From Arcticibacter svalbardensis MN12-7 (GTDB lineage Bacteria; Bacteroidota; Bacteroidia; Sphingobacteriales; Sphingobacteriaceae): DNA of 64,000 bases. Positions 2,243 through 17,738 of the stretch are shown here, in pieces. Position 1 is the first letter of the stretch. Each line of letters starts with the position of its first letter. Position numbers and translations under genes: made by a program. The notes under the pieces were generated by a model. That model made no database searches. It saw only the letters and a program-made list of their open reading frames with translations, and was not told the origin of the DNA. Location of the stretch: the NCBI RefSeq assembly GCF_000403135.1, contig NZ_AQPN01000100.1, positions 1 through 64,000 of the forward strand, given 5' to 3'.

Positions 2243-2277
2243 TGATAATAAGCACAAGTTTTTAACTGATATTATCA
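2243..2277. promoter_or_regulatory. Inverted repeat upstream of the DUF4007 operon
   Basis: TGATAATA (2243-2250) and TATTATCA (2270-2277) form a perfect 8-bp inverted repeat with a 19-base spacer, about 85 bases before the first gene of the plus-strand island operon. It could be an operator or a hairpin in the leader. AT-rich repeats of this length can arise by chance, so support is weak. Confidence 0.3.
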
Positions 2278-2362
2278 TACCATCTGTGGACAGCATGATC
2301 GGTAAAGACTAATTTATCTGTTTAAATTGTTTGATATTTGTAGTAAATATTAGGCTAACAAT

Positions 2363-3238
2363 ATGCGTATTAGTTTTAGCGGCCACGAAACTTTTGTTTG
2401 CCGGCAGTTTTGGTTAAAAAAGGGTTATGAGCATTTACTTGCACATAGATCTTTTGTTGATGATGATGCTGTAGTGCATTTAGGAGTAGGTAAGAATATG
2501 ACCACAGCAATTAAGTTCTGGCTAAGAGGATTTAATATCGCAGATGATCATGACAAGATAACCACATTTGGTGATTATGTTTTTTCAGGAAAAGACCCAT
2601 ACTTGGAAGACTCAGCTTCACTTTGGTTGTTGCACTATATGGTAATCAATAATGAAAGGGTTTTTATCTTCAACAGCTTTTTCAATCAGTTTTTAAAAGA
2701 GAAAAATGAATTCACTAAGCCTCAGCTAATTTCATTTTTAAAGCGTAAAACGGAAGAAAGCGGAATAAAGCATTTCAGTGACAAAACATATGGTTCAGAC
2801 GCAAATGTATTTTTGCGTACTTATAATAGAGCAAATGACGGGAAAGCTGACATAGAAGAAGAGACCGCTAATTTATTGGTCGAATTGAATCTGATTCGAC
2901 CATTTACGAGGCTATCGCTGGATGGTAAAACTTCCATTCAATGGTTTAAGGTAATAAGGGAAAGTAGAGAAAATCTGCCTCGTGAAATACTAGCTTACGC
3001 CATTATCAATACTTTTGGTAATGAGGTTCAATCATTGTCTTTTAAAGATTTACTTGAGAGTGTTAATTCTCCAGGTAATATTTTTTGCTTAACTGAAAAA
3101 GGCCTTGAAGAAAAACTTGTTGAACTAGCACATGTATGGCCATTAGATTTTAATTATAACGAAACAGCTGGTAATCGGGTATTTCAGATTAAAAGAGAAT
3201 TAGATAAATGGGAGTTTTTAAATAGATATTATGGTTAA
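2363..3238 (+). CDS. DUF4007 family protein, first gene of a phosphorothioation-like operon
   Basis: A 291-residue protein with the signature start of DUF4007: FSGHETFVCRQFWLKKGYEHL, then LGVGKNMTTAIKFWL at about residues 41-55. DUF4007 proteins are known mainly from gene clusters with PAPS-reductase-like (DndC-like) proteins and are thought to belong to DNA sulfur-modification or related defence systems; the biochemical role is not known. I see no signal peptide, metal motif or P-loop. The C-terminal half is probably helical. The stop overlaps the start of the next gene by 8 bases, so the two are translationally coupled. The ATG at 2363 directly begins the conserved FSGHETF strand, which supports this start. 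Confidence 0.8.
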   Translation: MRISFSGHETFVCRQFWLKKGYEHLLAHRSFVDDDAVVHLGVGKNMTTAIKFWLRGFNIADDHDKITTFGDYVFSGKDPYLEDSASLWLLHYMVINNERVFIFNSFFNQFLKEKNEFTKPQLISFLKRKTEESGIKHFSDKTYGSDANVFLRTYNRANDGKADIEEETANLLVELNLIRPFTRLSLDGKTSIQWFKVIRESRENLPREILAYAIINTFGNEVQSLSFKDLLESVNSPGNIFCLTEKGLEEKLVELAHVWPLDFNYNETAGNRVFQIKRELDKWEFLNRYYG

Positions 3239-6200
3239 GCATTTTTCGCCTTCTCAGAATATACTGATCAATAATTTTAATGTTAGCGAATTTATAATAA
3301 CACCGAATACACAGGAGGTATTTGATGCTATTATAAACAATTATGAATCAGGAGTAAGATCAATTAATTTAATTGGAGCTTATGGCACTGGTAAATCCAC
3401 ATTCTTTAATGCTTTATCCTATCACCTGAATGAGGAAAAGATTTTTGTGCAAGGTAGGGAATGGACAAGTTATAGTAATTTCGATATTTTAAAGTTGGTT
3501 GGAAGTTATGACTCTATCATAGACAATGTTAAAAACCTTATTGGCTCATCCAGCAATAAACCATCAGAAGTGGTTAAAGAATTAGAAGGTCTTATCAAAA
3601 ATTCTAATAGGGAAAAAAGAGGTCTTATCTTGATGATAGATGAGTTTGGTAAGTTCTTGGAATATGCCTCAGTAAATGGTGCAGAAAAGGAGCTATACTT
3701 CTTACAACAAATTGCAGAGGTTTTCAATAATATAGAATATGAAGCTGCTTTTATAACAACTCTTCATCAAGATTTTTCAGCCTATGCTGTTGAGTTAAAT
3801 AACACCCAACGTAACGAGTGGATAAAGGTAAAAGGCCGATTTAAAGAACTCACTTTTAATGAGCCAGTAGAGCAACTTCTACTTCTCGCAAGTAAGACAA
3901 TAGCCGCCCAACCGAACCAAGATAACCTAGAAAAAATAAGATATTTAATAGGGATTATTAGTGATGCTAAAGCTTTTCCGCTAAAGGATTACTTTGATCA
4001 GAGAACAGCCAATAGTATATATCCCTTGGATCTATTGTCTGGGAGTATCCTTGCTTTAGCCCTTCAGCAATATGGACAGAACGAACGGTCACTCTTTACT
4101 TTTTTAAATGCTCATAGCTTTTATGGTTTAGACGATTTAAATAAAGGAAGCCAAAATTTTTATGCCATATCAAATGTGTATGACTATTTAAACTATAACC
4201 TTTATTCATTTCTGAATTCAAAAGCCAATATGCATTATAGTAAATGGGCGGAAATTAAAAATGCGTTGGAAAGAGTAGAAGGAGAAGTAGAAGAAAAAGA
4301 TCATAAACTGTATCAAACATTAATTAAAACTATTGGCTTACTAAATATTTTTAGCCATGCAGGGGCTAAATTAGATTTAAACTTTTTGACAAATTACATT
4401 GAGCTAACCGGTAAGCTCAATGATGTGGAAGCAGCTATTAAAAATCTTCAACGGTTAAATTTGTTATCATATAATCGGTATTCTCAACGCTATTTTTATT
4501 CGGATACGACTGCTGTTAATATTGATGATGCCATACATGAGGCAGGTCTGGAAATTAGTAGAGCGAATAATATTGTAAGCTTTTTAAATGGTTATTTCCC
4601 TTTAGCACCCGTTTCTGCAAAAAGAACTTATTACGAAAAAGGAACACCACGTATTTTTGAATATAAAATCAGTGACTCTCCATACTCAGCCTCAAAACCT
4701 ACAGGTCAGATAGATGGATTTATCAATCTGATCTTTAACGAAAAAATAAAAGAAGCCGACATTATAAAAGCATCTTCAAACACTGATCAAGCAATTATTT
4801 ATGCACATTTTCTAAGGGCTGATGCGATACAGCATGCTATTGAAGAAATTGAAAAGGCAGAAATTGCGAAAGCTAAATACCTCAATGATAAGATTATTCA
4901 AAGGGAGTTAAACGCAATAGTAGACATACAAAAAAATTTGCTCAACTATCTGTTATATGAAGGTTTTTATGATTGGGATTCTGTAAATTGGTATTATAAC
5001 GGCAAAAAAGTTACCTTGCAAAATAGCAGACACTTCAATGCTCTTTTGTCTGACATATCCGATCTTGTATATCCTTCAACACCTGTATTTATAAGCGAAC
5101 TTGCTAACAGAAATAAACTTTCTACTCCCATATCAGCGGCTAGAAAATCTTTGCTAGAAGCATTGATCAACTGTGGGGAAGAAGAAGGCTTAAGTATTGA
5201 AGGATTTCCACCTCAAAAAAGTATTTATCTCTCTTTGTTGTTACAGACAGGTATACATAGGAAAACTGATAACGGATGGTCGTTGCAGCCGCTAAATGAT
5301 TCCGCTCTGGATACCAACAACTTTTTGCCTTTATTTAAAACTTGTAATGCTTTTATAAATGGTACAAAGGGAGCCAAAAGGAGCATAAGTGAGTTATATG
5401 CTCTTTTGGAAGAACCTCCATTCAAACTAAAGAGAGGTTTTCTTGATTTTTGGATACCTATATACCTTTTAATGAAATCGGATGATTTTGCTATGTATGG
5501 GCAAAATGGTTTTATACCAGAAATCAATGCAGATATACTTGAGCTTTTAGTTAAAAATCCTAAACATTACGAGATCAAAGCTTTTGATACAGAAGGTATT
5601 AAAGTAAGCTTGTTCAACCGTTACCGCGATTTGTTATCACTAAGCGAAGAAAAACAAACTTCAACTGAGGGATTCATTAAAACGATCGTTCCTTTTTTTA
5701 AATTTTATAGAGACTTAAAGCCCTATGTAAAACAAACTAAAAGATTGAGTAAGAAGGTTCAAAATGTAAGAAAAGCACTTACAGAGGCTACAGATCCGGA
5801 GAAATTATTTTTCGAAGATTTACCAAGCGCACTTAATTATGATTTAATTCAGTTAAATAAAACCCCGGAGTTATTGATTGAATTTAGCACTGAGTTACAA
5901 AATTCGATTAGAGAATTGCGTAGTGCTTATGATGAATTATTAAATCATTTTGAAATCATTATTAATTCTTTGTGGAATATACCATACACTTTCCTTGAAT
6001 ACAAGGAACAATTAAGAAACAGATATTCAGGATCAGTGAAAAAATACCTGTTGTTATCTTATCAAAAAACTTTTTTTGATCGACTGTGTTCGCCACTTGA
6101 GGATAGAGGAGCATGGCTCTCATCAGTGGCACAGGCAACTGTTGGGAAAACATTAGACCAAATTACAGATAAGGAAGTTGAGCAATTGCAAGAGCGTTTT

Positions 6201-6467
6201 TTAACCCTTGTCCACGAATTAGATAATCTGAATGATATGGCATTGCAAAAAGTCAACCTTGAACAGGAAGATGTCTTTAAATTGGAGCTTACTACACCAG
6301 GAAATAACATTAGTCAAAAAATAGTTCGCATACCTAAAATACAAAGTGCCCAATTCCAAAATTTGGAAAGCGAATTGTCTGGTTTAATACAAAAAGAGAA
6401 TAAAACCACAAAAATTGCTATATTGGCAAAACTGCTAAAACAAGTATTAGATGACGATAGAAAATAA
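3231..6467 (+). CDS. Large P-loop ATPase of the island (BrxC/PglY-like in style)
   Basis: A 1078-residue protein with an N-terminal ATPase domain: Walker A GAYGTGKS at residues 49-56 and Walker B LILMIDEFGKF with Asp137-Glu138. The spacing and the words 'GaYGtGKStf' and 'mIDEfGKfley' recall BrxC/PglY ATPases of BREX systems and other large defence ATPases, but the similarity is by eye only. The remaining roughly 750 residues are predicted to be mostly helical, with charged coiled-coil-like stretches near residues 820-860 (KQTKRLSKKVQNVRKAL), and carry no nuclease or helicase motif I recognise. It is coupled to DUF4007 upstream (8-base overlap) and to the PP-loop gene downstream (17-base overlap), which suggests a stoichiometric complex. 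Inferred role: ATP-driven DNA-remodelling partner of the sulfur-transfer enzyme. Confidence 0.7.
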   Translation: MVKHFSPSQNILINNFNVSEFIITPNTQEVFDAIINNYESGVRSINLIGAYGTGKSTFFNALSYHLNEEKIFVQGREWTSYSNFDILKLVGSYDSIIDNVKNLIGSSSNKPSEVVKELEGLIKNSNREKRGLILMIDEFGKFLEYASVNGAEKELYFLQQIAEVFNNIEYEAAFITTLHQDFSAYAVELNNTQRNEWIKVKGRFKELTFNEPVEQLLLLASKTIAAQPNQDNLEKIRYLIGIISDAKAFPLKDYFDQRTANSIYPLDLLSGSILALALQQYGQNERSLFTFLNAHSFYGLDDLNKGSQNFYAISNVYDYLNYNLYSFLNSKANMHYSKWAEIKNALERVEGEVEEKDHKLYQTLIKTIGLLNIFSHAGAKLDLNFLTNYIELTGKLNDVEAAIKNLQRLNLLSYNRYSQRYFYSDTTAVNIDDAIHEAGLEISRANNIVSFLNGYFPLAPVSAKRTYYEKGTPRIFEYKISDSPYSASKPTGQIDGFINLIFNEKIKEADIIKASSNTDQAIIYAHFLRADAIQHAIEEIEKAEIAKAKYLNDKIIQRELNAIVDIQKNLLNYLLYEGFYDWDSVNWYYNGKKVTLQNSRHFNALLSDISDLVYPSTPVFISELANRNKLSTPISAARKSLLEALINCGEEEGLSIEGFPPQKSIYLSLLLQTGIHRKTDNGWSLQPLNDSALDTNNFLPLFKTCNAFINGTKGAKRSISELYALLEEPPFKLKRGFLDFWIPIYLLMKSDDFAMYGQNGFIPEINADILELLVKNPKHYEIKAFDTEGIKVSLFNRYRDLLSLSEEKQTSTEGFIKTIVPFFKFYRDLKPYVKQTKRLSKKVQNVRKALTEATDPEKLFFEDLPSALNYDLIQLNKTPELLIEFSTELQNSIRELRSAYDELLNHFEIIINSLWNIPYTFLEYKEQLRNRYSGSVKKYLLLSYQKTFFDRLCSPLEDRGAWLSSVAQATVGKTLDQITDKEVEQLQERFLTLVHELDNLNDMALQKVNLEQEDVFKLELTTPGNNISQKIVRIPKIQSAQFQNLESELSGLIQKENKTTKIAILAKLLKQVLDDDRK

Positions 6468-7566
6468 TAGTGTAAGGCATGTCTTAGGTATTTCAGGAGG
6501 GAAAGACAGTGCAGCATTAGCTATTTATATGAAAGAGTTATATCCACAAATGGATATAGAATTTTATACATGTGATACTGGCAAAGAACTTGACGAGACT
6601 TATCAGCTCATCCGTAATCTAGAATCTAAACTAGGCGTTAGCATTAATAAACTTTATGCTAAAGAAGGGGACAAAGGAAACCCTTTTGATTTTTACCATA
6701 ACCTTTATGGTGGCTATCTTCCATCTTCAAACGCTCGCTGGTGTACACAAAAACTAAAGATTGAACCTTTTGAAAATTACATTGGTACTACACCTGTAAT
6801 TTCATATGTGGGTATTCGCGGAGATGAAGACCGAGAGGGTTACATCTCTACCAAATCACACGTACAATCTATTTTCCCTTTCAGGGAAAATATTTGGAGT
6901 GAAGAGGTAATTGGTAAAGTATTAAAGAATGAAAATCAACAAAAGCTCCTTGCTTTATATAAAGAGTTTTTAAGTCAGAACTTATACCAAAGGGCTGTAG
7001 ATATTCTTAAAACACCCTTATCATTCTCGTATAATCAAAATCAAAAGTTGAAGGCGTTGATGGATCTAGGAATTAAGGAATTTAATCATGTGGCTTTCCA
7101 ATCTTTGAAAGATTCTAATCTTCCTATTGCTCTAGTTAACGATTTTCCCTTGCTAAACAACGAATCAGTCTTAATTCGCGATGATATATTTAGAATATTA
7201 CGCGAAAGCGGAGTAGGTGTACCTGCTTATTATGAAGAAATTCCTTACGAAGTTAATGGGCAGATAGGTAAGTATAATCGTAGCCGATCTGGGTGTTTCT
7301 TTTGTTTCTTTCAACGGAAAATTGAATGGGTTTGGCTGTATGAACAAAATCCTGTCAAATTCTTTTTGGCTGTTGAGTATGAAAAAGATGGCTACACCTG
7401 GATGCAAGATGAACGCTTAGAAGAACTAATTAATCCTGAGCGAATTAATCAAATTAAATTAGAATTTTTAACCAAACAGCAAAACGCTGCTCAAAATTAT
7501 CGATCAAATAAGTTAATTGATATTTTAGATGCGGAAGAAGAAGGTTGTTTAGCTTGTTTTATATAG
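6451..7566 (+). CDS. PAPS reductase family / DndC-like PP-loop protein
   Basis: A 371-residue adenylating PP-loop enzyme of the phosphoadenosine-phosphosulfate reductase superfamily. The pyrophosphate loop SGGKDS is at residues 15-20, followed by FYTCDTGKELDET (Cys41) and the substrate-site motif RWCTQKLK (Cys98). A CFFC pair at about residues 282-285 and a C-terminal CLAC pair at 366-369 give further cysteines that could hold an iron-sulfur cluster, as in DndC, which activates and transfers sulfur to the DNA backbone. It is longer than CysH (about 240 residues) and lies in a defence operon, not with sulfate-assimilation genes, which favours a DNA sulfur-modification role. No cysteine desulfurase (DndA/SspA/IscS) is nearby, so the housekeeping enzyme would have to supply sulfur. 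Role is inferred; the fold assignment is solid. Confidence 0.85.
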   Translation: MTIENNSVRHVLGISGGKDSAALAIYMKELYPQMDIEFYTCDTGKELDETYQLIRNLESKLGVSINKLYAKEGDKGNPFDFYHNLYGGYLPSSNARWCTQKLKIEPFENYIGTTPVISYVGIRGDEDREGYISTKSHVQSIFPFRENIWSEEVIGKVLKNENQQKLLALYKEFLSQNLYQRAVDILKTPLSFSYNQNQKLKALMDLGIKEFNHVAFQSLKDSNLPIALVNDFPLLNNESVLIRDDIFRILRESGVGVPAYYEEIPYEVNGQIGKYNRSRSGCFFCFFQRKIEWVWLYEQNPVKFFLAVEYEKDGYTWMQDERLEELINPERINQIKLEFLTKQQNAAQNYRSNKLIDILDAEEEGCLACFI

Positions 7567-7568
7567 TA

Positions 7569-8675
7569 ATGGAATATAAAATAGAAAAATGGCAATTAAG
7601 ACAATTGCTAAAAATTTTAGAGGAAAAGAAACTCGATTTAAATCCGCCATATCAAAGAAATGCCATTTGGCCCAAAAAGACTCAAAGATTTTTAATTAAT
7701 TCAATAAAATCTGGTATTCCCGTGCCCAGTATCTTTCTATATGAAAAAGAAGTCGAAAATTACGAGATGGTTGATGGACAACAACGCACAAGAGCGATCC
7801 ATCTTTATAACTCGACAGGGGAAATTGACCTATCATCAGACGACTCAGATTTCAAAAAGGATCATTTTTTGAGTTATGAAATACCAGTTACTATTATTAC
7901 GAAAGTGGAGATAGGGGAATCTATTGAAGAGTTTTACTACATGGTCAATTCAAGTGGGGTTAAACTAAATCGTCCAGAAACTTTGAAAGCGCAATATTTT
8001 GATTCAAAGTTTTTAAAATTAGTCCAAGATATAACTATTTCAGAGTCATTTAATAAATTAAATATTATTCCAGCTAACTCTCAAAAAAGAATGTTAGACA
8101 GGGATTTGGTTGAAGAATTATGTGCACTCGTAATTTATGGAATAACTGATAAGAAAGCTCAAGTAGACAAGTTATATATTAATGACATAAATGATGAGGA
8201 CGAAGCTATATGTAGATCAAAATTCAAAGAAATCTTAGACCATTTATCTAGATTTGATGAAATTCGTTTAATTAAAACAACTAGGTTTCGGCAAAGGAAT
8301 GATTTTTATACACTGTTTGGATTTATAAAAGATAATGTCAATATTGGAAATGACGCTTTAGATTATTTTTATAAATTATTGATAATTTTAGAAAAAGGTA
8401 TTCGTCCCAATAGTAGAAGTGCAGCTAGAGAATTGGCTGAATATGCTTTTAATTGTGTTAGCCAATCAAATTCTGCTAATGCTAGATTGAAAAGAATAGA
8501 AATCTTTAATAACTTATTTCTTAATGACAGTAAATTACCGAATACTTCTCAAGAAGAAATCAGAAGCTATTACCCTGCTGAAGGTGAATATTTTAAGCAA
8601 ATTGGTAAGTATTACACATTTAATGATATGACACTAAATCGGGCCGTTCTGGAAAAGGAACAGCAAAATTTTTAA
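7569..8675 (+). CDS. DUF262 (ParB/GmrSD-N-like) domain protein
   Basis: A 368-residue protein with an N-terminal DUF262 domain: NPPYQRNAIWP at about residues 25-35 and the diagnostic DGQQR at 69-73, a ParB-like NTP-binding fold. In GmrSD and SspE this domain hydrolyses nucleotides and senses modified DNA, and is normally followed by a DUF1524 HNH nuclease. Here I see no HNH motif in the C-terminal half, so this is a sensor-only version or uses another effector. The start is taken at the ATG at 7569, two bases after the PP-loop gene's stop; an upstream in-frame start at 7545 would overlap that gene. The kinase gene follows within 6 bases. Likely the modification reader of the island; this is inference. 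Confidence 0.8.
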   Translation: MEYKIEKWQLRQLLKILEEKKLDLNPPYQRNAIWPKKTQRFLINSIKSGIPVPSIFLYEKEVENYEMVDGQQRTRAIHLYNSTGEIDLSSDDSDFKKDHFLSYEIPVTIITKVEIGESIEEFYYMVNSSGVKLNRPETLKAQYFDSKFLKLVQDITISESFNKLNIIPANSQKRMLDRDLVEELCALVIYGITDKKAQVDKLYINDINDEDEAICRSKFKEILDHLSRFDEIRLIKTTRFRQRNDFYTLFGFIKDNVNIGNDALDYFYKLLIILEKGIRPNSRSAARELAEYAFNCVSQSNSANARLKRIEIFNNLFLNDSKLPNTSQEEIRSYYPAEGEYFKQIGKYYTFNDMTLNRAVLEKEQQNF

Positions 8676-8680
8676 TAATT

Positions 8681-9592
8681 ATGTATTTAGACGGTAGAAA
8701 TATAAAGCTTTCAACTAATCCGACAGAGAATCTACTCGAGTTGGAAGGGGAATATTACCAGATCGATTTCTTACATGAGACAAATAAATACGTACATGGT
8801 GGAAATGGCATTATTTTCAAACTTAGTGATGAGCAAAAGGGTATTGATTATGTTATTAAGTTTTTGAGATTTTCTGTTGAATATGCAAATAATGATTGGA
8901 AATTAAAAAAGAGATTAAAACGTTTTGACAGAGAAGTAGAGGCCCTCTATGTAGCCAAAACAAATAGTCTTTTAGGTATAGTTCAGATTGAGACGCATGG
9001 AGATTTTATTATTAGTGGAGAAACTTTCCCATATTATATAATGGAGAAATGTGATTTTACTTTAAATCAATATCTGCAGGATGAGGGGGATGATTTGAAT
9101 GTAATTCAAAAAACTATGTTATGCCATAAAATTTTAGAGGGTGTTCAGCAATTGCATGAATATAAAATATATCATCGTGATATAAAACATGATAATATAT
9201 ACTTTTTAGATGGAGAACCATTGATAGGTGATTTAGGTTTAGTAGATTTTCAAGATACTGATTATATAATAAATGAAAATGGGGAATTAATAGGACCAAC
9301 CGGATGGTTTTCTCCTGAAGCTTTGAATAAATATCTTGTTGAAAAAACACCAAACAAAAATAAGTTTGATTGTACTATTGACGAAAAATCAGAAGTTTTC
9401 CAGTTGGGTAAGCTTTTCTGGTATATATTTCAAGGAAACTTACCGATTGGTCAGATACAGGTAGAAGATTTCCTTCCTAACAATGAAATAATTTACGAGA
9501 TACTTTACAATATGCTCGTTTATTCTAAAAACAAGAGGTCGGATACAGAAAAGGTATCTTATCAAATCGGTAGTTTTTTATCTAGTAATTAA
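8681..9592 (+). CDS. Hanks-type serine/threonine protein kinase
   Basis: A 303-residue soluble kinase, essentially one catalytic domain. Visible elements are a glycine-rich loop HGGNGIIFKL (39-48), the VIK lysine (Lys60), a helix-C glutamate (Glu86), the catalytic loop HRDIKHDN (165-172), DLG in place of DFG (184-186), and GPTGWFSPEA in place of the APE motif. All catalytic residues are present, so it should be active. There is no transmembrane or PASTA segment. It is the last gene of the plus-strand operon, 6 bases after the DUF262 gene. Kinases occur in several defence systems (for example PglW in BREX type 2 and Stk2), where they regulate or execute the response. The substrate here is unknown; its operon partners are the obvious candidates. 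Confidence 0.85.
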   Translation: MYLDGRNIKLSTNPTENLLELEGEYYQIDFLHETNKYVHGGNGIIFKLSDEQKGIDYVIKFLRFSVEYANNDWKLKKRLKRFDREVEALYVAKTNSLLGIVQIETHGDFIISGETFPYYIMEKCDFTLNQYLQDEGDDLNVIQKTMLCHKILEGVQQLHEYKIYHRDIKHDNIYFLDGEPLIGDLGLVDFQDTDYIINENGELIGPTGWFSPEALNKYLVEKTPNKNKFDCTIDEKSEVFQLGKLFWYIFQGNLPIGQIQVEDFLPNNEIIYEILYNMLVYSKNKRSDTEKVSYQIGSFLSSN

Positions 9593-9818
9593 AAAAAATT
9601 TAAACTCTTCTCCCATTCTACCGCATATAATTTAATAACACTGAAAACATAATGCATATTTTAATTTCTTAATTTTCTATTATTGGTGGGATCATTTATT
9701 CTTTCATAGTCTGTTTTGTGCTCTGGTAATCAATTTACTTTCGAATAACTATATAACTGGTCAAAACACTCCATCCTTGGAATAGGAAGACCATTTAACT
9801 TGCTATTTAAATTAAAAT

Positions 9819-10304
9819 TTATTTTAGGCCATTAATCCGCTCAAATATCTCTCTAAAATAGTCATCTGCATAGTTAAATTTTGATTCCTGCCCTGATGTG
9901 CCTCTCAATTCTAATATATGTTTAGCACCGCCCTCTGCATATTCGCTAATTATCGTAAGAATTTCCCTTGAGTTTAATAATTCATCGGATGTAGAAACTT
10001 CCATTTTCCCAATTGCCATTAAAACAAGCGAATAGGCAATACTTTCAGATGCGTTAGAGATAACTTGGTATTCAAATGAGGTTCTGTTCTGCAGAAGATC
10101 ACCCTTTTCGCGTTTATTATGTAAAAAGCCTATTATAGAAGCCCATGCATATACTTGCCAATAGTTGGAAAAAAACTTATCATCTGCCCTTGTAATGTTT
10201 ACTCCTCGTTCCTCTTTGCGGCTAAAAAGATCCCGCACTTTAAGTAGTTCATTCCCATACCAAACCTTCTTTTTATTCACCTCAACAATTAATTTATCTT
10301 TCAT
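9819..10304 (-). CDS. Small protein of the island, possibly Dnd-associated protein 4-like
   Basis: A 161-residue protein that I do not firmly recognise. Its central part, with a hydrophobic helix leading into IIGFLHNKREKGD (about residues 58-70) followed by a long helix with YSLVLMAIGK, recalls the short 'Dnd system-associated protein 4' family, whose members carry a similar LGF..gkRe pattern. It is the last gene of the minus-strand operon, one base after the SMC-like ATPase gene, and converges with the kinase gene. The C-terminus contains EYAEGGAKHILEL and FREIFERI, consistent with a helical all-alpha fold. No catalytic motif is seen. Function is unknown; the family suggestion is tentative. 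Confidence 0.5.
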   Translation of the reverse strand: MKDKLIVEVNKKKVWYGNELLKVRDLFSRKEERGVNITRADDKFFSNYWQVYAWASIIGFLHNKREKGDLLQNRTSFEYQVISNASESIAYSLVLMAIGKMEVSTSDELLNSREILTIISEYAEGGAKHILELRGTSGQESKFNYADDYFREIFERINGLK

Positions 10305-10305
10305 A

Positions 10306-12432
10306 TCATTTGATTTTCGTGGTAATTGAACGTCTGTTTGTCCTTGATTTGCCTGCTGTAGGATTTATAAATTCACTTGTGATTTGATAAAAGTTTTTTA
10401 TGTCGGCTTCTATAATTAGTTTCGCGAGTTGCTCATTATCAAATTGTGTATAATCCTTTGACATAATGATAATTTGTTCAAATGATGCCCCAATATTAAC
10501 TGTTAAATTATAGGTATTACCTGCATCTAAATCTGATGAAGGAGCATCGGCTATTAGAGGATAAGATCTATTCATTTTTTTTGCACTTAAAGATAAGAAG
10601 GCATTAGCTAAAGCAAGCTTTTGCGCTACTAGTTCACCTTGATTCAGGTCATTAAGTTGCATTCCAGTTTTCATATCCACGACATGTGCAGAGTCATCTA
10701 TTTTTATTACACCTTGTTCCTTTCCGTCTAAATAAAGGGAATATAAACGATTGCTTTCTATCTCCAACTCTTTGATGAGCGTATTGTAAGCGGAATCTTT
10801 TAAAACAGAAATACTTTTTATAAACAAGCTTATATAATCGGAAGCAACACTTTCCGCTAAGTTAATATCCTGACTTTTCGTAAAATTATCCCTTAAAGCC
10901 TTTTTATTTGATAATTCTAATTTGGATGATAATAGTTCCTGCTCTAATACGGAAATTCTCTTTAGTTTAATACTTTTATCTGTTCGGTAAGTTTTATGTT
11001 TATTGATGTTTTGCTGTGCTATTGAAGCATTTGTTTCAAGATCCGCACGTTCTTCAAACCCTAGATCGTTAAACACATTTGATATCTGCTTTCCAAGTGA
11101 ATTCCTTTTTCTAATTAATGCATTTTTCTTATTCTCATTCTCAACTATCTCAGTATTAATATTAGGAAGGTCGTTCAAAAGTCTTTTACGGAAACGATTG
11201 AGATCCGCATAATTATCCTGAAGTGATTTAACATGTGCATTTTTTTGAAAGTCATTCAATCTCCTTTGAAGTGCTTCGTATGCCGCCTGATCATCTACAA
11301 TTGATCGCTCGCAGATATAGCATATTTTATCCACTAACATTTGCTCAACATATTCTGGACCAGGCAAATTCATTGGAATCGGATTACTATGAGCTTGCTT
11401 TATCTGAATTTCAGTATTCAATATATTCAAATTAGACTCAGCGGCTTTTATGAGCTCTGCGCAACCATTAAGCATCCAAACATTGATCAATCTTTCTTTA
11501 GTGTTTATCTCTATTGCATCTATTTGACTTTTAGTAATTTTTTGGTCAGCTTCTAATCTGGTTAAATCTATCTTATATTGCATAAAATGATCTATTCCTT
11601 CGAGTTTCTGCTCAATTTTAGTCAATTCTTCTTCCAAGCTTTGGGTTTGATTTACAAGATCAATCTTTTCTTGTTCATTTATAGAGATTTTATTTTCTAA
11701 TATTGTAATATCAAAATATATAGCATTTTGTTCTTTAGATAAGCGGTTTTGCTGTGCCAGTTCTTTGGCAATTTTCTTATTTATGCTTGCATCGGATGAC
11801 ATAACTACTTTATACATGAAGTCATATTTAGGAAAATAGGAGATTTCATGTATTGCATTTCTTAATGTGGCTTTACTGCTAAAATCATACAAATCATCCA
11901 TGGTTTCCCCTTGATACCACATGAATTTCCTAATGCTTTTGGGAAAGATTTTATTTAGCACTATTTCAAAATCAAAGCGTTGGACAATAAAAGTTTCCCC
12001 GCTTTGAACATATTCGATTTTTAATTCAGAAGGTAACAATGTTATTATTCCCCTATCTGTTTTTTTAAAAGTAACTACTCGTTTAAAATTATAAATGACA
12101 GTATCATCGGTAGTGAAATCAGCAGCCTGGTAATCATTTGCTTCGATGGTTACCTCAACTGATGTTTGAAATTGTTCATCAATGTCAAGTGAGTTTGATA
12201 TGGAATCCGGATAGATAGTCAAATTTTTATCGTCATCCCATGTTTTTTTCTTGTTTCCACTTCCTTCACCAGAATATATTTTATCAAAGAATGTCCAGTA
12301 AAATGCGTTAAAAAATTGTGATTTGCCACTGCCATTCCTTCCAGAGATAATATTTAATCCCCTTGTGAATGAGAAAGTATTTTTACCCAGATAACAAAAG
12401 AAATTATTGATTTGAACTTCGTTAATTACCAT
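10306..12432 (-). CDS. DndD/Rad50-like SMC-type ATPase with zinc hook
   Basis: A 708-residue ABC-type ATPase of the RecF/SMC/Rad50 group. Walker A GRNGSGKS is at residues 31-38 after a VINEVQINNFFCY strand typical of RecF-like N-termini. Long charged helices (about 205-350 and 385-540) form the coiled coil, interrupted near residue 371 by CYIC, a CxxC zinc hook. The C-terminus carries a signature-like LNQGELVAQKLALANA and a Walker B/D-loop LIADAPSSDLD. DndD of phosphorothioation systems has this same plan (about 650-700 residues with a CxxC), making a DndD-like role plausible, but other defence SMCs look similar. It overlaps the 81-residue gene by 11 bases and is followed after 1 base by the 161-residue gene. 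Confidence 0.8.
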   Translation of the reverse strand: MVINEVQINNFFCYLGKNTFSFTRGLNIISGRNGSGKSQFFNAFYWTFFDKIYSGEGSGNKKKTWDDDKNLTIYPDSISNSLDIDEQFQTSVEVTIEANDYQAADFTTDDTVIYNFKRVVTFKKTDRGIITLLPSELKIEYVQSGETFIVQRFDFEIVLNKIFPKSIRKFMWYQGETMDDLYDFSSKATLRNAIHEISYFPKYDFMYKVVMSSDASINKKIAKELAQQNRLSKEQNAIYFDITILENKISINEQEKIDLVNQTQSLEEELTKIEQKLEGIDHFMQYKIDLTRLEADQKITKSQIDAIEINTKERLINVWMLNGCAELIKAAESNLNILNTEIQIKQAHSNPIPMNLPGPEYVEQMLVDKICYICERSIVDDQAAYEALQRRLNDFQKNAHVKSLQDNYADLNRFRKRLLNDLPNINTEIVENENKKNALIRKRNSLGKQISNVFNDLGFEERADLETNASIAQQNINKHKTYRTDKSIKLKRISVLEQELLSSKLELSNKKALRDNFTKSQDINLAESVASDYISLFIKSISVLKDSAYNTLIKELEIESNRLYSLYLDGKEQGVIKIDDSAHVVDMKTGMQLNDLNQGELVAQKLALANAFLSLSAKKMNRSYPLIADAPSSDLDAGNTYNLTVNIGASFEQIIIMSKDYTQFDNEQLAKLIIEADIKNFYQITSEFINPTAGKSRTNRRSITTKIK

Positions 12433-12667
12433 TACTATGCCTTTTTGTTTTTATTGTATTAATTATATAGTTTTCAAATTCACCACGTGCTTTATCAATA
12501 TCTTCTAACTCAGCCTCTAGAAAGCGGTCTGCGGAAAGCAACTTTTCAAAGGCTCCTGATATAATTGTTGGATCAATTTTTTTTGCTATAATAAGGTTAG
12601 CAAATTGCGTTTGTTTCAATATTGTACCAAATTCTTCTCTAAGACTATCATTTAATGTCTTTTTCAT
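12422..12667 (-). CDS. 81-residue small partner protein
   Basis: A short, probably all-helical acidic protein that I do not recognise. It is likely real because it is locked between two large genes: its start overlaps the helicase stop by 4 bases (ATGA type) and its end overlaps the SMC-like gene by 11 bases. Residues 1-45 would form amphipathic helices (LREEFGTILKQTQFANLII), and residues 50-75 a charged helix (ELEDIDKARGEFENYI). Such small adaptors often bridge an ATPase and a helicase. No DndE-like sequence is evident, although DndE is also small and helical. Function unknown. Confidence 0.65.
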   Translation of the reverse strand: MKKTLNDSLREEFGTILKQTQFANLIIAKKIDPTIISGAFEKLLSADRFLEAELEDIDKARGEFENYIINTIKTKRHSNGN

Positions 12668-14916
12668 ATTTCGTATAAATCAAGTTCTGAATTCATCATT
12701 TCATAAATATCAATTTCATAAATACTTGCTAAGTCTTCCAGGCTTTTCATGACTTGCATTTTGTTTTCAGCTAGGGCTGCAAAATTGATCAATCTTTTAA
12801 GCTCACCCATTAATATGTTTTTTTCAACTTTGTGTTCTTGTGATTGCCCTTGAGTAATATCAACGGGAGGTTTCACAACCATATCGTAGATATATGCGTA
12901 AGGCTTGTTTTTATGGAATCTAAGAACACGCCCACGTCTTTGTACATATTGACGAGGATTACCTGTACTTGAGCAGAATACCGCATATTGTGTACGTGGT
13001 ACATCCACTCCTTCGTCCAGGCATTTCATTGCTAAAACAGCATCTATTTCCCCATTACGAAATTGACTGAGTATGGCCTCTCGGTCTTGAGTGTCACCAA
13101 GGAATTTCCGCATTTTGAAATGATGCTGCTGATATAACAAAGATGTATACCGATTTACTATACGCATATCATCCTCATCGCTGATAGTTGTATCCTGTTC
13201 ATCATAGTTTGCACTATTCCCTTCAGGTACATAAATAAAGACATACTTAAATTTATCAGGGCCAATTCTGTCTACTATTTCAAGAAGAGTCGATTCTTTT
13301 TGTCTTGCTTTGTGAATAACATTTTTTCTTTCAATTAAAAGCCTACTAACAGCGGGGCTTTCTCTGTAGCGACCAGTTACGGAATCAATATATTTTGCTA
13401 GTTTTTTAGTTATTGAACGATAAGCATCCAGTTCATCCGGTTCTAATGATACCATTACTGGATAGTAGTAATATTTACATAGAATCTTATCATTTATAGC
13501 CTGTTGCATATTATAGACAAACGTATAATGTGGAGGAAAGGCATTGAAAAAATTGCATAAGAGTTCTTGTCCAGTAGCGTCATATACTCGTTCAGGAGTT
13601 GCTGATAAGCCGATACGTTTATTGATTTTAACTGGTAATATTTTGAGTAGTTTTGCTGATCCAAGAGTATGTGCTTCATCTGCAATTAAAGTCAATAAGC
13701 TGAAGAACCCTTTAAAATTTCTTTCCCACGTAGTTTGAAACTTTAACCCCCGGAAAGTAGCATAAGTAACAATTAACCCGAAGTTATTGTTGCTGCCGAT
13801 AATAAAATTTCTGCCGAATTGATTCACTCTAGCCTCCCACCCTAGATGCTTACTCGAACAAATGACGATATCTGTATAATTAAACTTTTGGGTTGCCTCT
13901 TCATACCATTGATCTGCTAATGCAATAGTTGGAACTAATACTACAAAATTATATTGATTCTGAATGCGAAACTCTTGAAGAACACAATTTAAAGCTGTAA
14001 TGGTCTTACCAGTTCCAGTAGCCATTGCAAATAGTCCCTTGTAACCATTTGCAATCCAATTGTCATAAGCTTTTATCTGGTAATCTCTTGGACCTTCCTT
14101 ATAAGGAAATTTCGGTAAGAGATAATCTGAATCACCTTCAGCTATAAAGACAGGTTTAAGCTCCTTATGCTTATCCAATTTTAGATATCTCTTTTTTAAA
14201 TTAAGTAATTCCTTTTCCTGAACCAGTAATTCATCAATATCTTTATTAGCAAAAGTATTTATGATAATGGCTTGTATTTCCTCCACTGGAACATACTCCA
14301 CAAAATCTGCTCTTTCGGAATATATTTCTTCGAAATATTTATCCTGTTTTAAAATAAATTTATCAGATCGTAAATCATCTCCTAATATGTAAATTTCTAT
14401 TTCTTCAAGGTTAGATAGAAGACCATATGATGTGAAATTACAAGAGGCTTTAAAGCCTACTTTGTTAATTCCATCTCCAAATACTCCAGATTTGTAATGA
14501 GAAATCCCTTTCCCTTCTTTCGGACGTATGACCTTAAGTTGAATACGGTCCTGATTAATTAACCATGCAATACATTCGAAAAAATGATTACCATATTCAT
14601 CCAATGAATCTTTAATTGATTTAAAATCCGATAAATCTACCAATGTAGAAGATACGAAACTACTTTTCCCAAGTAATACTGCTTCTTTATCTTTTTCAGA
14701 CAGCACGTCGTTAATTAGCATCCGTAATTTACCACCTTTACTTATAAACGTTGCAAATCCTAGTGAAAGAAGATGGATTGCAGATGTGCTGAAATATCCT
14801 AACAGTAAATCTAAGATTGTACTGTTCATTAACGCATCTTGATAAAATTCATAGGGTTTGAATTCACTTCCTGATCGGTAGGACCGATCCTCAGGCCAGC
14901 TTACATCTTTAAGCAT
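12664..14916 (-). CDS. Superfamily 2 DEAD/DEAH helicase with N-terminal PLD-like domain
   Basis: A 750-residue protein. Residues about 25-200 look like a phospholipase D-type nuclease domain: HYKSGVFGDG (His140, Lys142) followed by FKASCNFTSYGLLSN, the pattern seen in PLD domains fused to restriction helicases; only one HxK copy is seen, so a dimer would be needed for catalysis. The helicase core follows: RDYQ Q-motif-like (277-280), Walker A MATGTGKT (298-305), ADEAH (412-416), GLSATPER, and C-terminal QYVQRRGRVLR (motif VI). The order fits restriction-type translocases. It is the first gene of the four-gene minus operon; a 9-bp inverted repeat lies 29-53 bases before its ATG. Expected role is DNA translocation with or without cleavage; specificity is unknown. 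Confidence 0.85.
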   Translation of the reverse strand: MLKDVSWPEDRSYRSGSEFKPYEFYQDALMNSTILDLLLGYFSTSAIHLLSLGFATFISKGGKLRMLINDVLSEKDKEAVLLGKSSFVSSTLVDLSDFKSIKDSLDEYGNHFFECIAWLINQDRIQLKVIRPKEGKGISHYKSGVFGDGINKVGFKASCNFTSYGLLSNLEEIEIYILGDDLRSDKFILKQDKYFEEIYSERADFVEYVPVEEIQAIIINTFANKDIDELLVQEKELLNLKKRYLKLDKHKELKPVFIAEGDSDYLLPKFPYKEGPRDYQIKAYDNWIANGYKGLFAMATGTGKTITALNCVLQEFRIQNQYNFVVLVPTIALADQWYEEATQKFNYTDIVICSSKHLGWEARVNQFGRNFIIGSNNNFGLIVTYATFRGLKFQTTWERNFKGFFSLLTLIADEAHTLGSAKLLKILPVKINKRIGLSATPERVYDATGQELLCNFFNAFPPHYTFVYNMQQAINDKILCKYYYYPVMVSLEPDELDAYRSITKKLAKYIDSVTGRYRESPAVSRLLIERKNVIHKARQKESTLLEIVDRIGPDKFKYVFIYVPEGNSANYDEQDTTISDEDDMRIVNRYTSLLYQQHHFKMRKFLGDTQDREAILSQFRNGEIDAVLAMKCLDEGVDVPRTQYAVFCSSTGNPRQYVQRRGRVLRFHKNKPYAYIYDMVVKPPVDITQGQSQEHKVEKNILMGELKRLINFAALAENKMQVMKSLEDLASIYEIDIYEMMNSELDLYEI

Positions 14917-14944
14917 GAATAAGTAAAGTTTTTTGCATCAAGTT

Positions 14945-14969
14945 AACTATCAAATTATTATTGATAGTT
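14945..14969. promoter_or_regulatory. Inverted repeat upstream of the helicase operon
   Basis: AACTATCAA (14945-14953) and TTGATAGTT (14961-14969) form a perfect 9-bp inverted repeat with a 7-base spacer. It sits in the 152-base gap between the winged-helix gene and the helicase start, where an operator would be expected. The upstream regulator gene is a natural candidate binder. Binding is inferred from position and symmetry only. Confidence 0.45.
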
Positions 14970-15068
14970 TGAGGGGGGTAAGATACATACTATATAATAC
15001 TTTGCCAAATTAGGCAGATAATTCATTGAAACTCATTTTATATGATGCTGTAGGTGCAATTATTACAA

Positions 15069-15644
15069 CTAGATTTTAGTGTACTGTTCAAGTATGATCA
15101 ATTTTATAGCAAGTTCTTTTTCTCTAACCTTTCCGACTCTTATAATGTCCGTTAAAGAAAGCAATTCATATAATTTATCGTTTTCTTGAATTGCTTCTGT
15201 TACTTTTGGATAAAGAGGGTCAATAGAAACTCCTTTTGTATTGCCATGTAGAGGTTGAGCAGTTATTATGCCTCGGCTAATTCTGCCTTGTATTGCCGGA
15301 AATACATATGGTAATCCGTATTGGATAAATTCAAGCAATGTATTAATTTGTACTTTATGCGACATAATTAATCCTGCAATTTTCGATCTGTTAATTGAAT
15401 TCCCTACTTCAGATAGGCTTATTCTTAAATCCCTTGAAAGCTCTATATTCATGGCTTGATGGTTAGCTAATACTATTTGATATAATATTGCAAGGTCATA
15501 AGGGCGCATTCCATTATGTGCTTTCATAAAACTAATAAACATATAATTTGCAATTTGCAAATCGCAAATTGCGACATTGTCCTCTGGTTTCGCAATCCTC
15601 TTATTACACTTCCATCCTTTTCCTTGTGAGAAAATTGCACACAT
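15069..15644 (-). CDS. Winged-helix (MarR-like) DNA-binding regulator of the island
   Basis: The longest frame gives 191 residues. The part from MRPYDLAILYQIVLA (residue 46) onwards resembles a Bacteroidota group of winged-helix proteins: a helix 'MkPyDl.iLlki', then ELSRDLRISLSEVGNSINRSKIAGLI, a clear helix-turn-helix with recognition helix at about residues 74-90. The first 45 residues (MCAIFSQGKGWKCNKR) are unusual; starts at residue 35 (15542), 40 (15527) or 46 (15509) are alternatives. AAGGA five bases before the 15644 ATG favours the long form, whereas a 9-bp inverted repeat inside the extension would be an operator if the short form is right. It lies on the same strand just upstream of the helicase operon and divergent from the sigma-factor remnant, so it probably regulates the island. 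Confidence 0.7.
   Translation of the reverse strand: MCAIFSQGKGWKCNKRIAKPEDNVAICDLQIANYMFISFMKAHNGMRPYDLAILYQIVLANHQAMNIELSRDLRISLSEVGNSINRSKIAGLIMSHKVQINTLLEFIQYGLPYVFPAIQGRISRGIITAQPLHGNTKGVSIDPLYPKVTEAIQENDKLYELLSLTDIIRVGKVREKELAIKLIILEQYTKI
15550..15572. promoter_or_regulatory. Inverted repeat overlapping the 5' part of the regulator gene
   Basis: GCAATTTGC (15550-15558) and GCAAATTGC (15564-15572) are a perfect 9-bp inverted repeat with a 5-base spacer. If translation starts at residue 35 or later of the longest frame, this lies directly upstream of the start and would suit an autoregulatory operator. Confidence 0.4.
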
Positions 15645-15716
15645 TCAGATCCTTATGATTTTAACAATTTGTTTTGTTTGAATTTTTCCTTATTTAACCT
15701 AACCAATTATTTACTT

Positions 15717-16107
15717 ATGTCTGATTTGTTCCTATACTCTGATCAAGATCTGCTGTTAAAAGGGGCATTAGGTAATGAACATGCATTCCGCCAACTATTT
15801 TCGAGGTATCATCAGCAATTAGGCGTTTATGTTTATCGTATTACTGATTCGGTTGATTTGGCTGAAGATATTATTCAGGATGTATTTCTTGAAATATGGA
15901 TGAGTCGTGAAGCATTGGCTGGTGTAGATAATTTTAAAGCTTATTTAGTTGTCATGTCTAAAAACCATACTTTAAATTGCTTATTGAAACTAAGCAGGGA
16001 GCGGTTAAAGAAAAAGGATGGGAGGATAATTTCAACAACGGTTTGAAATCAGGGGAGGAGGAGAGCAATGGTGGCAAACCGGGGAAGAACTATATTGCCT
16101 TTAGTTT
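15717..16107 (+). pseudogene. Broken ECF sigma factor gene (RNA polymerase sigma-70 region 2 only)
   Basis: From MSDLFLYSDQDLLLKGALGN the frame encodes sigma region 2: AFRQLFSRYHQQLGVYVYRI, DLAEDIIQDVFLEIWMSRE and a typical FKAYLVVMSKNHTLNCLL. After KKKD at about 16020 the frame ends (GRIISTTV, stop at 16046), but shifting by one base at 16018-16022 continues with WEDNFNNGLKSGEEESNGG until a stop near 16107. Region 4, needed for -35 recognition, is absent. So the gene carries a frameshift and has lost its 3' half; the IS4 element inserted 64 bases further on. The in-frame upstream ATG at 15669 adds an atypical 16-residue leader and is less likely. Such factors normally head FecR-SusCD operons; none is left here. 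Confidence 0.75.
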
Positions 16108-16171: not shown

Positions 16172-17738
16172 CTAAAGCTTCGCAGGAGACTTTTAGGGAT
16201 ATTTAAGGCATAAAAAAGCAGCAGTTTTTTTGAATAATACACTCAAAATGAGTATATTAAAGTCGCAAAACAAAACAAAAAAACATGCTGCAGTCCAAAG
16301 ATACCAATAGAATTTCTGAAATAAAAACGCAATTTGATTCTAAGGAAAATATCACATTGCGTTTTTTAAACTGGTTATCGTTCTTTGAATTTAAATCTGT
16401 ATATAAAACACTGAATCCGCTTAAGAAAAAAGGGTTTAAGGTTTCCGATTTACTCGGTATGCTTTTAGTTGTACCCTTTACCGGAAAAACGAATATGTAT
16501 TCTCTTTTACAAAGCAGCAGTGCACCTGGCATAGCCCGTAAGGACAGTTTTTACCGGATGAAAAAGATGCATGACATTAACTGGGAGAAGCTGCTGTTTG
16601 CATTCGCAGGACGATTTGTAAAAATCTGTTTAGCCAAAGGAACAGGTACTGCTCCAGGGCACCGGATGCTGATCATTGATGACAGCCTATTGCCTAAGTC
16701 GGGTACCATGATGGAAAATATCAGCCGTTTATGGGACCATGTATCCATGCGTTATGTGCTGGGATACCGGATGCTGGTACTGGGTTATTTTGACGGCAAA
16801 AGCTTTCTTCCTGTAAGTTTCTCGCTTCATCGGGAGAAGGGCAAAAGGGAGGCAAGTCCCTATGGATTGAAAAGAATGGAATACCAGGGCCAGTACCATA
16901 AAGAAAGAAATAGGGAGAGCCCTGCGGGCAAACGTACTGCAGAAATGGACAAGGACAAGATTACCACAGCTATCCGTATGATCAAACAGGCCTGCGGTAG
17001 CCTGCAAGTCGATTATCTGCTTATGGACAGCTGGTTTACCTGTGAGAAAATGCTGGCCTGCGCCCATTCAGTAAAGGTAAAGCTCATTGGAATGATGAAA
17101 ATGGGTAACGCCCGGTACCTCTTCAGAGGGAAAGAGTATACGGCCAAAGAATTGATTGTACTGTTAAAAAAAGAACAGAAAAGGTGCAGGAAGCTGGCCG
17201 CAATGTATATCGAAGTGCCTTTATTTTATAAGGGGTATCCGGTAAAACTGTTCTTTTCTAAGTTTGGAAGGAACGGTAACTGGCAGCTGCTTTTGTCTAC
17301 GGACCTGAACGCCGGCTATCTGAAAACAGTGGAACGTTATCAGGTTCGCTGGTCCATAGAAGTCTTCTTTAAAGAAAGTAAACAGTATCTGAAGATCGGT
17401 AAAAGCCAGGCTGCAGATATCGGTGCACAGTTCGCCGATATCACCATCAGTATGATCCAGTATATCCTGCTGACACTAAGAAAACGGTTCGGAGAATATG
17501 AAACCAAAGGTGCCGTATTCAGAGATGCAGAAGAGAAATTAAAAGACCTGACCCTGGATCAACGCTTATGGGGATTATTGTTAGAAATGGTCAAACTTAT
17601 TGTTGAAATATTAGGACTTCCATTAGATGATCTGGATCAGTTTATGACTAATTTAATTCAAGAAAATAAAGTTAAAAAACTCTTGAAACTTCATTTTTCA
17701 GTTTAAGATTAATCACAAATTCATGTGCGAAGCTTTAG
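16172..17738 (+). mobile_element. Complete IS4-family insertion sequence
   Basis: CTAAAGCTTCGCA at 16172-16184 is repeated inverted as TGCGAAGCTTTAG at 17726-17738, a perfect 13-bp terminal inverted repeat. TGAATAA flanks both sides directly (16165-16171 and 17739-17745), a 7-bp target duplication; alternatively the ends extend one base to a 14-bp repeat with a 5-bp duplication GAATA. One intact transposase gene fills the interior. The element is about 1.57 kb and appears intact and fairly recent. Confidence 0.9.
16285..17706 (+). CDS. IS4 family transposase
   Basis: A 473-residue DDE transposase. The first catalytic Asp lies in LIIDDSLLPKSG (about residue 132), the second in LLMDSWFTCEKM (about residue 247), and the Glu in YQVRWSIEVFFKESK, which is exactly the Y-2-R-3-E-6-K signature of the IS4 family (about residues 352-366). 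Length and the N-terminal FRMKK-type helical domain fit full-length enzymes. The gene is uninterrupted and sits between the inverted repeats, so it should be functional. It inserts beside the dead sigma-factor gene and upstream of the rimP promoter, about 90 bases away, without disturbing that promoter. Confidence 0.93.
   Translation: MLQSKDTNRISEIKTQFDSKENITLRFLNWLSFFEFKSVYKTLNPLKKKGFKVSDLLGMLLVVPFTGKTNMYSLLQSSSAPGIARKDSFYRMKKMHDINWEKLLFAFAGRFVKICLAKGTGTAPGHRMLIIDDSLLPKSGTMMENISRLWDHVSMRYVLGYRMLVLGYFDGKSFLPVSFSLHREKGKREASPYGLKRMEYQGQYHKERNRESPAGKRTAEMDKDKITTAIRMIKQACGSLQVDYLLMDSWFTCEKMLACAHSVKVKLIGMMKMGNARYLFRGKEYTAKELIVLLKKEQKRCRKLAAMYIEVPLFYKGYPVKLFFSKFGRNGNWQLLLSTDLNAGYLKTVERYQVRWSIEVFFKESKQYLKIGKSQAADIGAQFADITISMIQYILLTLRKRFGEYETKGAVFRDAEEKLKDLTLDQRLWGLLLEMVKLIVEILGLPLDDLDQFMTNLIQENKVKKLLKLHFSV

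Follow-up and report, generated by a model that had tools for sequence, protein, structure and literature searches.

A PbeABCD cassette paired with an Ssp-type phosphorothioation module in Arcticibacter svalbardensis

PbeABCD is a four-gene antiviral cassette tied to DNA phosphorothioate (PT) modification. Such a cassette occupies the region 9819-14916 of the window analysed here, i.e., the 64,000-nucleotide stretch (positions 1-64,000) of contig NZ_AQPN01000100.1 of Arcticibacter svalbardensis MN12-7, where it lies beside the genes of an Ssp-type PT writer. The window probably holds an Ssp-type PT immune island with PbeABCD as its effector. For published systems, the statements below refer to the passages of the cited papers that were covered.

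In Haloterrigena jeotgali, PbeB and PbeD have 66 and 152 residues, respectively; PbeB, PbeC, and PbeD are absolutely needed and PbeA partly (PMC6459918, Xiong et al. 2019). The cassette requires PT in the host and is non-toxic without PT. It spares PT-marked virus, and replication is blocked with no visible cleavage (PMC6459918). The writer is DndCDEA, which modifies GATC on both strands or one; 47-73% of the PT sites are hemimodified in four haloarchaea (PMC6459918). The pbe genes were sought next to dndCD, one year before the Ssp paper, and this may explain why a pairing with Ssp went unseen. The same system was re-described in 2024 as CxC ABC ATPase-DndE systems, with PbeD as the DndE cognate (PMC10853773, Rakesh, Aravind, Krishnan). 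The section on these systems couples them to DndD systems and methylases, and Ssp is not mentioned there.

Two effectors are described alongside Ssp writers, SspE and SspFGH (SspABCD-SspE and SspABCD-SspFGH; PMC9646914, PMC8092258). Wang et al. 2021 found 2,211 of 2,678 sspBCD modules without sspFGH and sspE and asked about unknown restriction partners (PMC8092258). In PMC7464106, strains that have any PT writer (dnd or ssp) and pbeA-D are counted in a pooled form, so that strains with an Ssp-Pbe combination may be hidden among its counts. An Ssp-Pbe locus is nowhere stated in the literature passages covered, where PbeABCD appears with Dnd genes or is listed beside Ssp; supplements and two key papers (Krishnan 2020 and Xiong 2020) lie outside this coverage and prior notice is possible. 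As far as the covered literature goes, what is new is the partner (Ssp) and not the cassette.

The locus in the window shares with DndCDEA-PbeABCD the four genes, their order, their domain make-up, the approximate sizes of the small proteins (81 and 161 residues here), and the tie to phosphorothioation (PMC6459918). It differs in the writer, which is SspBCD (making single-strand PT in studied relatives); no dndCDEA is found beside the cassette. Compared with the 2024 description (PMC10853773), it is the same system under another name, and an ATPase partner with a DndE fold is present in a predicted model, but the zinc hook reads CYIC (CxxC) rather than CxC. The writer is of the same kind as in the SspE and SspFGH systems and likewise has a putative effector alongside, here Pbe. 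While SspE is one protein with DUF262 and a C-terminal nuclease, the 376-residue DUF262 protein of the window has GmrSD_N only. For SspFGH, the passages covered describe a Walker A motif and a C-terminus resembling FtsK and name neither a helicase nor PLD (PMC8092258). BREX type 4 has SspB, SspC, and PAPS-reductase homologues in common with the window (PMC12839542), but the sulfurtransferase of the window scores 287.9 bits with SspD and 25.2 bits with BrxP, and no PglZ or BrxL is found among the ten neighbours scanned, which is a partial check.

Identity of the four genes

All four open reading frames are on the minus strand and start with ATG, and they encode 750, 81, 708, and 161 residues. 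The tight coupling claimed in the original prediction, which was made from the DNA alone, is confirmed by the coordinates: there are overlaps of 4 bases (12664-12667) and 11 bases (12422-12432) and a gap of 1 base (10305).

The first gene, pbeA (12664-14916), encodes an N-terminal PLD (HKD) nuclease domain followed by an SF2 helicase (ResIII/Helicase_C). The PADLOC PbeA model matches the 750-residue protein with E=8.4e-284, by which an unnamed new four-gene system is ruled out. Both Pfam helicase domains are above their cut-offs (ResIII 1.7e-22, Helicase_C 8.3e-14). The NCBIfam model TIGR04095 ('DNA phosphorothioation system restriction enzyme') gives 383.5 bits, below its cut-off of 600. The Pfam PLD model is not among the matches listed by the Pfam scan, and NF042964, a PLD anti-phage model, matches residues 23-171 below its cut-off (2.3e-08). 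In an alignment of nine sequences (that of the window and eight homologues), the PLD catalytic stretch lies at residues 140-171 (14404-14499, minus strand) with H140, K142, S158, N160, and E171 invariant. Residue 148, which is D in the window, is not D in all nine.

pbeC (10306-12432, minus strand) encodes a DndD/Rad50-like (SMC-like) ABC ATPase with an N-terminal AAA_23 domain (3.6e-08; 34.7 bits, cut-off 27; Pfam) and a PADLOC PbeC match of 2e-30. A Walker A motif, LNQGE, and LIADAP are present; we read LNQGE as the putative signature and LIADAP as the putative Walker B motif. The zinc-hook motif CYIC was located by a motif search at residues 371-374 (11311-11322, minus strand). The hook is of the CxxC type in all 18 PbeC-bearing loci of the window's clade; in the other 42 loci with PbeC it is CxC in 36 and CxxC in 5, and none was read in 1. 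These motifs and domain matches bear out the original assignment of PLD and helicase to the 750-residue protein and of a zinc-hook SMC-like ATPase to the 708-residue protein.

The fourth gene, pbeD (9819-10304, minus strand), encodes a DndE-like protein. Its sequence matches are weak (PADLOC PbeD 0.0042; TIGR04062, 'phosphorothioation-associated protein 4', 0.0011 and 19.1 bits, under the cut-off of 74.25), and neither it nor the 81-residue protein has any match in the Pfam scan. Its AlphaFold2 model has a mean predicted local distance difference test score (pLDDT) of 85.5. When this model is re-aligned to 179 PDB chains, Z 2 is reached by DndE entries only, the best match being 5wtu (Z 8.3, root-mean-square deviation 2.9, 97 residues). 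The model points to a DndE-like fold, in agreement with PbeD as the DndE cognate (PMC10853773), and the earlier suspicion that the 161-residue protein is Dnd-associated fits this fold as well as the weak matches.

pbeB (12422-12667, minus strand) is identified by its place and size, as the 81-residue product has no match in the Pfam, PADLOC, or NCBIfam scans. An open reading frame of 50-90 residues is found between PbeA and PbeC in 52 of the 60 distinct loci that have both, so the position of PbeB is no chance feature. The original prediction called the small proteins unrecognised. The set is in fact a known one, which received the name PbeABCD in 2019 and was described again in 2024. That the small proteins are obligate, as also supposed, agrees with the need for PbeB and PbeD in the studied homologue (PMC6459918). 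With PLD, ResIII, and Helicase_C in PbeA, a small gene between A and C, AAA_23 in PbeC, and PbeD as the fourth gene, the four genes are identified as PbeABCD.

The restriction-type machine proposed for these genes stands in part. The combination of helicase, PLD, and SMC/Rad50-like ATPase is indeed tied to sulfur modification; invader DNA may or may not be cut by members of this family, and viral DNA stayed intact in the studied homologue (PMC6459918). In a model argued by Rakesh et al. 2024 (PMC10853773), PbeB is a brake released by a phage trigger, whereupon PbeA attacks the host's own DNA with its PLD nuclease and the infected cell dies, while PT merely marks or tunes the system. This account, which we regard as unlikely, is favoured by the PLD motif in PbeA and by the small and fast-evolving PbeB. 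Against it are the intact viral DNA and the absence of toxicity of the pbe genes without PT (PMC6459918). PbeB is also predicted to be helical: its AlphaFold2 model has four helices of middling confidence (mean pLDDT 80.6, predicted template modelling score 0.47, 68 of 81 residues at pLDDT 70 or more), which does not fit well with a mostly disordered protein.

The Ssp writer and the borders of the island

The Ssp genes sspB (2363-3238), sspC (3231-6467), and sspD (6451-7566) exist in this order on the plus strand of the window. SspB contains DUF4007 (1.9e-70; PADLOC SspB 2.2e-86). The ATPase SspC matches PADLOC SspC with E=0 and 1142.1 bits, while its best BrxC match has 240.6 bits. SspD is of the PAPS-reductase type (PADLOC SspD 2.3e-86). 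The mark to be expected from an Ssp module is single-strand PT within a CCA-type motif. The writer adjoining the cassette is Ssp and not Dnd. No Dnd gene was found in an annotation scan of the 64-kb window, and a DndC query that had matches in two other genomes gave none in this genome; Dnd linkage is ruled out for this genome.

sspD is followed by a gene pair on the same strand. The first gene encodes the 376-residue DUF262 (GmrSD_N) protein (7545-8675; GmrSD_N 1.7e-18) with the motifs YQR (residue 36) and DGQQR (residue 77), in which GmrSD_N is the sole Pfam match and no C-terminal nuclease domain was found. The second encodes a Ser/Thr protein kinase (8681-9592; 303 residues; Pkinase 8.7e-17) with HRD and DLG motifs. 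The plus-strand sspB-sspC-sspD genes and this pair converge on pbeD. On the other side of the cassette, the gene upstream of pbeA (15069-15644, minus strand; 191 residues) matches PADLOC PDC-M21A (2.3e-28); its membership in the system is uncertain.

The DUF262-kinase pair could itself be the working effector of this Ssp module with Pbe as a passenger, which seems very unlikely. YQR and DGQQR are common to DUF262 proteins at large. The pair is found with SspBCD and without Pbe in two loci (L045 and L049), and the PT-sensing SspE requires DGQQR to hydrolyse GTP (PMC9646914). The Pfam scan gave no nuclease domain, however, and among the annotated Ssp-Pbe loci the pair is found in the window, L063, and L250 only. 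Altogether it occurs in five ssp loci (window 7545-9592, L045, L049, L063, and L250), three of them with Pbe, in a collection of loci fetched by PbeA or SspC only. L250, which combines the pair with both Ssp and Pbe, belongs to a second phylum.

The block sits between ruvX (56-481) and rimP-nusA-infB (from 17913). In the congener G698, matches to window positions 456 and 17794 are only ~70 bases apart, and therefore the site is empty there. Another congener, G695, matches 1-1784 beside ruvX and parts from 15422 on, and the Ssp-Pbe block has no match in the stretches fetched. We take ~1785-15421 as the variable block. A truncated sigma factor with region 2 only (15669-16046, plus strand) is found at the island edge; in G695, ~13 kb lie between the parts that match the two sides of this region. 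A DDE_5-type transposase (16285-17706) beside the island has no match in the corresponding stretch of G695.

Ssp-Pbe linkage across genomes

Among 395 genomes of Bacteroidota (the window's phylum), PbeA is found in 10, SspC in 22, and both in 7. All seven pairs are on one contig with less than 9 kb from PbeA to SspC, and co-occurrence is far above chance when the window's genome is left out (6/9 vs 21/394, Fisher p=8e-7). Among 299 genomes of Bacillota (the phylum of L064, Lachnospiraceae), PbeA is found in 15, SspC in 16, and both in 7, of which six pairs are less than 6 kb apart and one (G482) is 32 kb apart; without the centre genome the numbers are 6/14 vs 15/298 (p=1.3e-5). The seven of 15 is a lower bound, as G489 has SspBCD beside Pbe below the SspC threshold. 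A general wealth of defence genes in some genomes is not corrected for in this test; the distances do allow for it.

The 73 distinct Pbe loci include 26 with two or three ssp genes, 14 with two or three dnd genes, three with a single ssp gene, two with a single dnd gene, and 28 with neither; none has both sets. A cassette mostly alone and unrelated to sulfur modification, named in the original prediction as the contrary outcome, is not what is seen, as at least one writer gene is present in 45 of the 73, a figure to be read with the 8 of 12 tested genomes without a writer near Pbe in which two queries found none. The label 'none' refers to the stretch examined only, and 12 of the 28 loci have a short PbeA. 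Four of the 12 genomes tested under this label do have a writer gene: two have DndC ~11 and ~14 kb from Pbe (G021 and an Exiguobacterium genome, the latter provided that L067 is on its contig C1), and in the other two an SspC-like gene lies at a greater distance or on a different contig. Loci of weaker, mostly helicase-only similarity (L110-L133 and L138-L202) were left unannotated, and since every annotated locus was fetched by PbeA or SspC, any 'seen only with Ssp' is biased.

In 20 of the 29 distinct Ssp-labelled loci, a same-strand writer gene precedes PbeA, whose start lies within 20 nucleotides of it (sspA-type desulfurase in 15, sspD in 5). In seven loci of the Bacillota and Methanobrevibacter type (L064, L071, L079, L080, L097, L246, and L252), the genes are arranged as sulfurtransferase-sspB-sspC-sspA-pbeA-pbeC-pbeD; pbeB, in those loci where it was tabulated, stands between pbeA and pbeC. 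The Ssp-Pbe pairing is recurrent and the linkage is well supported.

In a tree of 63 PbeA sequences, the 33 Ssp-linked rows fall in three separate starred clades. The first contains the window and has 19 rows (15 Ssp, 2 Dnd, and 2 unlabelled); one unlabelled row is a genome with DndC 11 kb from Pbe, and in the other the contig ends near Pbe, with sspA before pbeA. In the second (Bacillota, Methanobrevibacter, and Fusobacteriota), Ssp is present in 15 of 15 rows, at no more than 3.4 kb in 14 and at 32 kb in one. The third is small (Rhodobacteraceae, Acidobacteriota, and G167). The Ssp label requires 4 changes on the tree, as against 21.3 in shuffles, and the starred branches force 4; with Ssp and Dnd rows alone there are 3 changes, and the figures from an earlier, 55-row tree were 5 and 4. 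Both trees are of the 'quick' type with no bootstrap. The 55-row tree omitted PbeA shorter than 600 residues and L135, L106, and L102; the 63-row tree also omitted the long rows L136, L096, L206, and L105 and the exact duplicate L244, and L253, whose PbeA is broken, is not represented in it.

Distances of PbeA and SspC are correlated overall (rho 0.61, n=19, p=0.0005) and in the Bacteroidota clade (rho 0.52, n=10, p=0.002). Strong writer-effector co-evolution as proof of pairing is borne out in part only, given the Bacillota clade (rho 0.29, n=6, p=0.22, not significant) and the Dnd loci, which behave alike (rho 0.58, n=11, p=0.003).

Besides these last two values, several observations weigh against an Ssp island with Pbe as its effector. 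The Ssp and Pbe operons of the window are convergent and not one operon, and the window is among the 9 of 29 Ssp-labelled loci with no writer gene directly upstream of pbeA, having the PDC-M21A gene where 15 of 29 have an sspA-type gene. sspA is not in the island; the nearest desulfurase, which shares 48% identity with an SspA, is encoded on a different contig (C101), from where it may serve Ssp. PbeA is broken in one of the six close Bacillota pairs (G635). The sulfurtransferase of L064, the sole one of the Bacillota type scanned, resembles BrxP (3e-77) more than SspD (5e-14), and Bacillota-type writers accordingly look like an Ssp/BREX-4 mix. For PbeD, Foldseek gave no significant match (best DndE, E=2.9), and Z 8.3 is close to the level termed common by the tool. 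Finally, neither DndC nor SspC was found by the two queries in the 8 of 12 genomes mentioned above, and Pbe may thus occur without PT.

The convergent, separable operons of the window and these 8 genomes would also suit a PbeABCD that is autonomous or uses another mark and stands beside Ssp through the clustering of defence genes. We consider this quite unlikely, in view of the 20 of 29 loci with PbeA within 20 nucleotides of a writer gene, the co-occurrence in two phyla (uncorrected for defence-rich genomes), and the retention of Ssp in every row of the Bacillota clade.

Carriage of Pbe on viral contigs occurs and is not the rule. PbeA is found in 4 phage records and PbeC in 1, and a phage-borne cassette as the rule was rejected; of 69 IMG/VR loci, four were taken as true relatives (L134-L137, with L134 and L135 alike). 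On plasmids, PbeA is found in 23 records, all below 60% identity and nine from Lactiplantibacillus. Four of these loci were opened: one has dnd genes (L205), and no PT writer was found within 12 kb in a scan of the other three.

SspC loci also have other neighbours. The 22 Bacteroidota SspC loci comprise seven with Pbe, six with a set of helicase, GHKL ATPase, and PLD genes, two with the DUF262-kinase pair without Pbe, and seven with none complete in the stretch. The 16 in Bacillota comprise six with Pbe close, one with Pbe 32 kb off, two with the helicase-GHKL-PLD set, and seven with none. This three-gene set, i.e., a PLD-less SF2 helicase, a GHKL (MzaB-like) ATPase, and a small PLD protein, is found beside SspB-SspC loci without Pbe in the stretch (L044:3595-8107, L046:14345-18761, L047:15844-19355, L048:1241-7310, L051:14987-20000, L053:12268-16705, L265:3469-7650, and L268:1013-5475), the PLD gene being beyond the stretch in L047 and cut in L051. 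It may be another Ssp effector, unlike SspE or SspFGH by their descriptions. A DndB-like protein is found in Ssp loci (L036:8827-10080, L043:3552-4799, L054:16139-17392, L056:7613-8848, and L268:6654-7907), in some of them near the place of the DUF262-kinase pair; that of L036, the sole one scanned, matches PADLOC DndB with 9e-25.

Sigma-70-like proteins adjoin Pbe genes in Ssp-linked, Dnd-linked, and unlinked loci; none is found in the window's own cassette. Those of 350-535 residues lie 4-25 bases after pbeD and have Pfam regions 2 and 4 (L064:14882-16042, L071:14875-15927, L079:14873-16480, L252:15561-16649, and L241:15253-16353). Those of 717-1308 residues lie directly before pbeA (L074:7743-9962, L076:253-4179, L098:77-2230, L136:6517-9918, L205:8846-11899, and L248:9638-13045); when the first start codon is used, they overlap pbeA by 4-17 bases or leave a gap of 0-7. 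A hidden Markov model built from the five shorter proteins retrieved these six (E 1e-17 to 5e-4), and that of L205 is also annotated as sigma-like. Further examples after pbeD are L109:14935-17181 (Pfam region 4), L070:6365-8320, and L245:4229-5338 (the last two 0.4 and 1.5 kb off). One sigma-70-like gene (that of L079) is in the archaeon Methanobrevibacter, whose RNA polymerase is not known to use a sigma factor. The sigma-70-like protein is possibly a fifth subunit for DNA melting or target finding. A Lachnospiraceae genome that holds an Ssp-Pbe operon also has a second, more distant PbeA-like gene (G395:C3:1077-3074).

Proposed mechanism and significance

In the proposed mechanism, SspB-SspC-SspD and a desulfurase encoded elsewhere in the genome would place single-strand PT on host DNA. 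PbeC (Rad50-like, with the zinc hook) and PbeD (DndE-like) would form a clamp that scans DNA and reads these marks, PbeB would be a small adapter or brake, and PbeA, with its SF2 translocase and PLD nuclease site, would be the blade or roadblock. PT-marked self DNA would license the machine and be spared, and in unmarked incoming DNA replication would be stopped through nicking or clamping. The PT requirement and the replication block are transferred from the Dnd-linked archaeal homologue (PMC6459918); we infer that PT is made by this Ssp and that Pbe reads Ssp marks in the order of steps given, and the roles of PbeB and the DUF262-kinase pair are likewise putative. The reader would have to accept single-strand marks. 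With 47-73% of PT sites hemimodified in the four haloarchaea, the shared signal may be a mark on a single strand.

A wider view, less likely than not, takes PbeABCD as a writer-independent PT effector that has changed partners between Dnd and Ssp three times or more. It would either sense a shared feature (one sulfur on one strand) or re-tune PbeC-PbeD at each swap, and would be a main effector of 'orphan' Ssp systems. In this island a second, split reader would work alongside it, with the SspE-like DUF262 GTPase signalling through the protein kinase and not through a fused nuclease.

On these data, PbeABCD looks like a plug-in effector, and it is a candidate partner of those Ssp systems that seemingly have none. 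Pbe offers a testable answer to the missing Ssp restriction partners in 7 of 22 Bacteroidota SspC loci and in 7 of 16 in Bacillota (one of them 32 kb away). One machine with two kinds of writer would also give an evolutionary handle on what Pbe reads.

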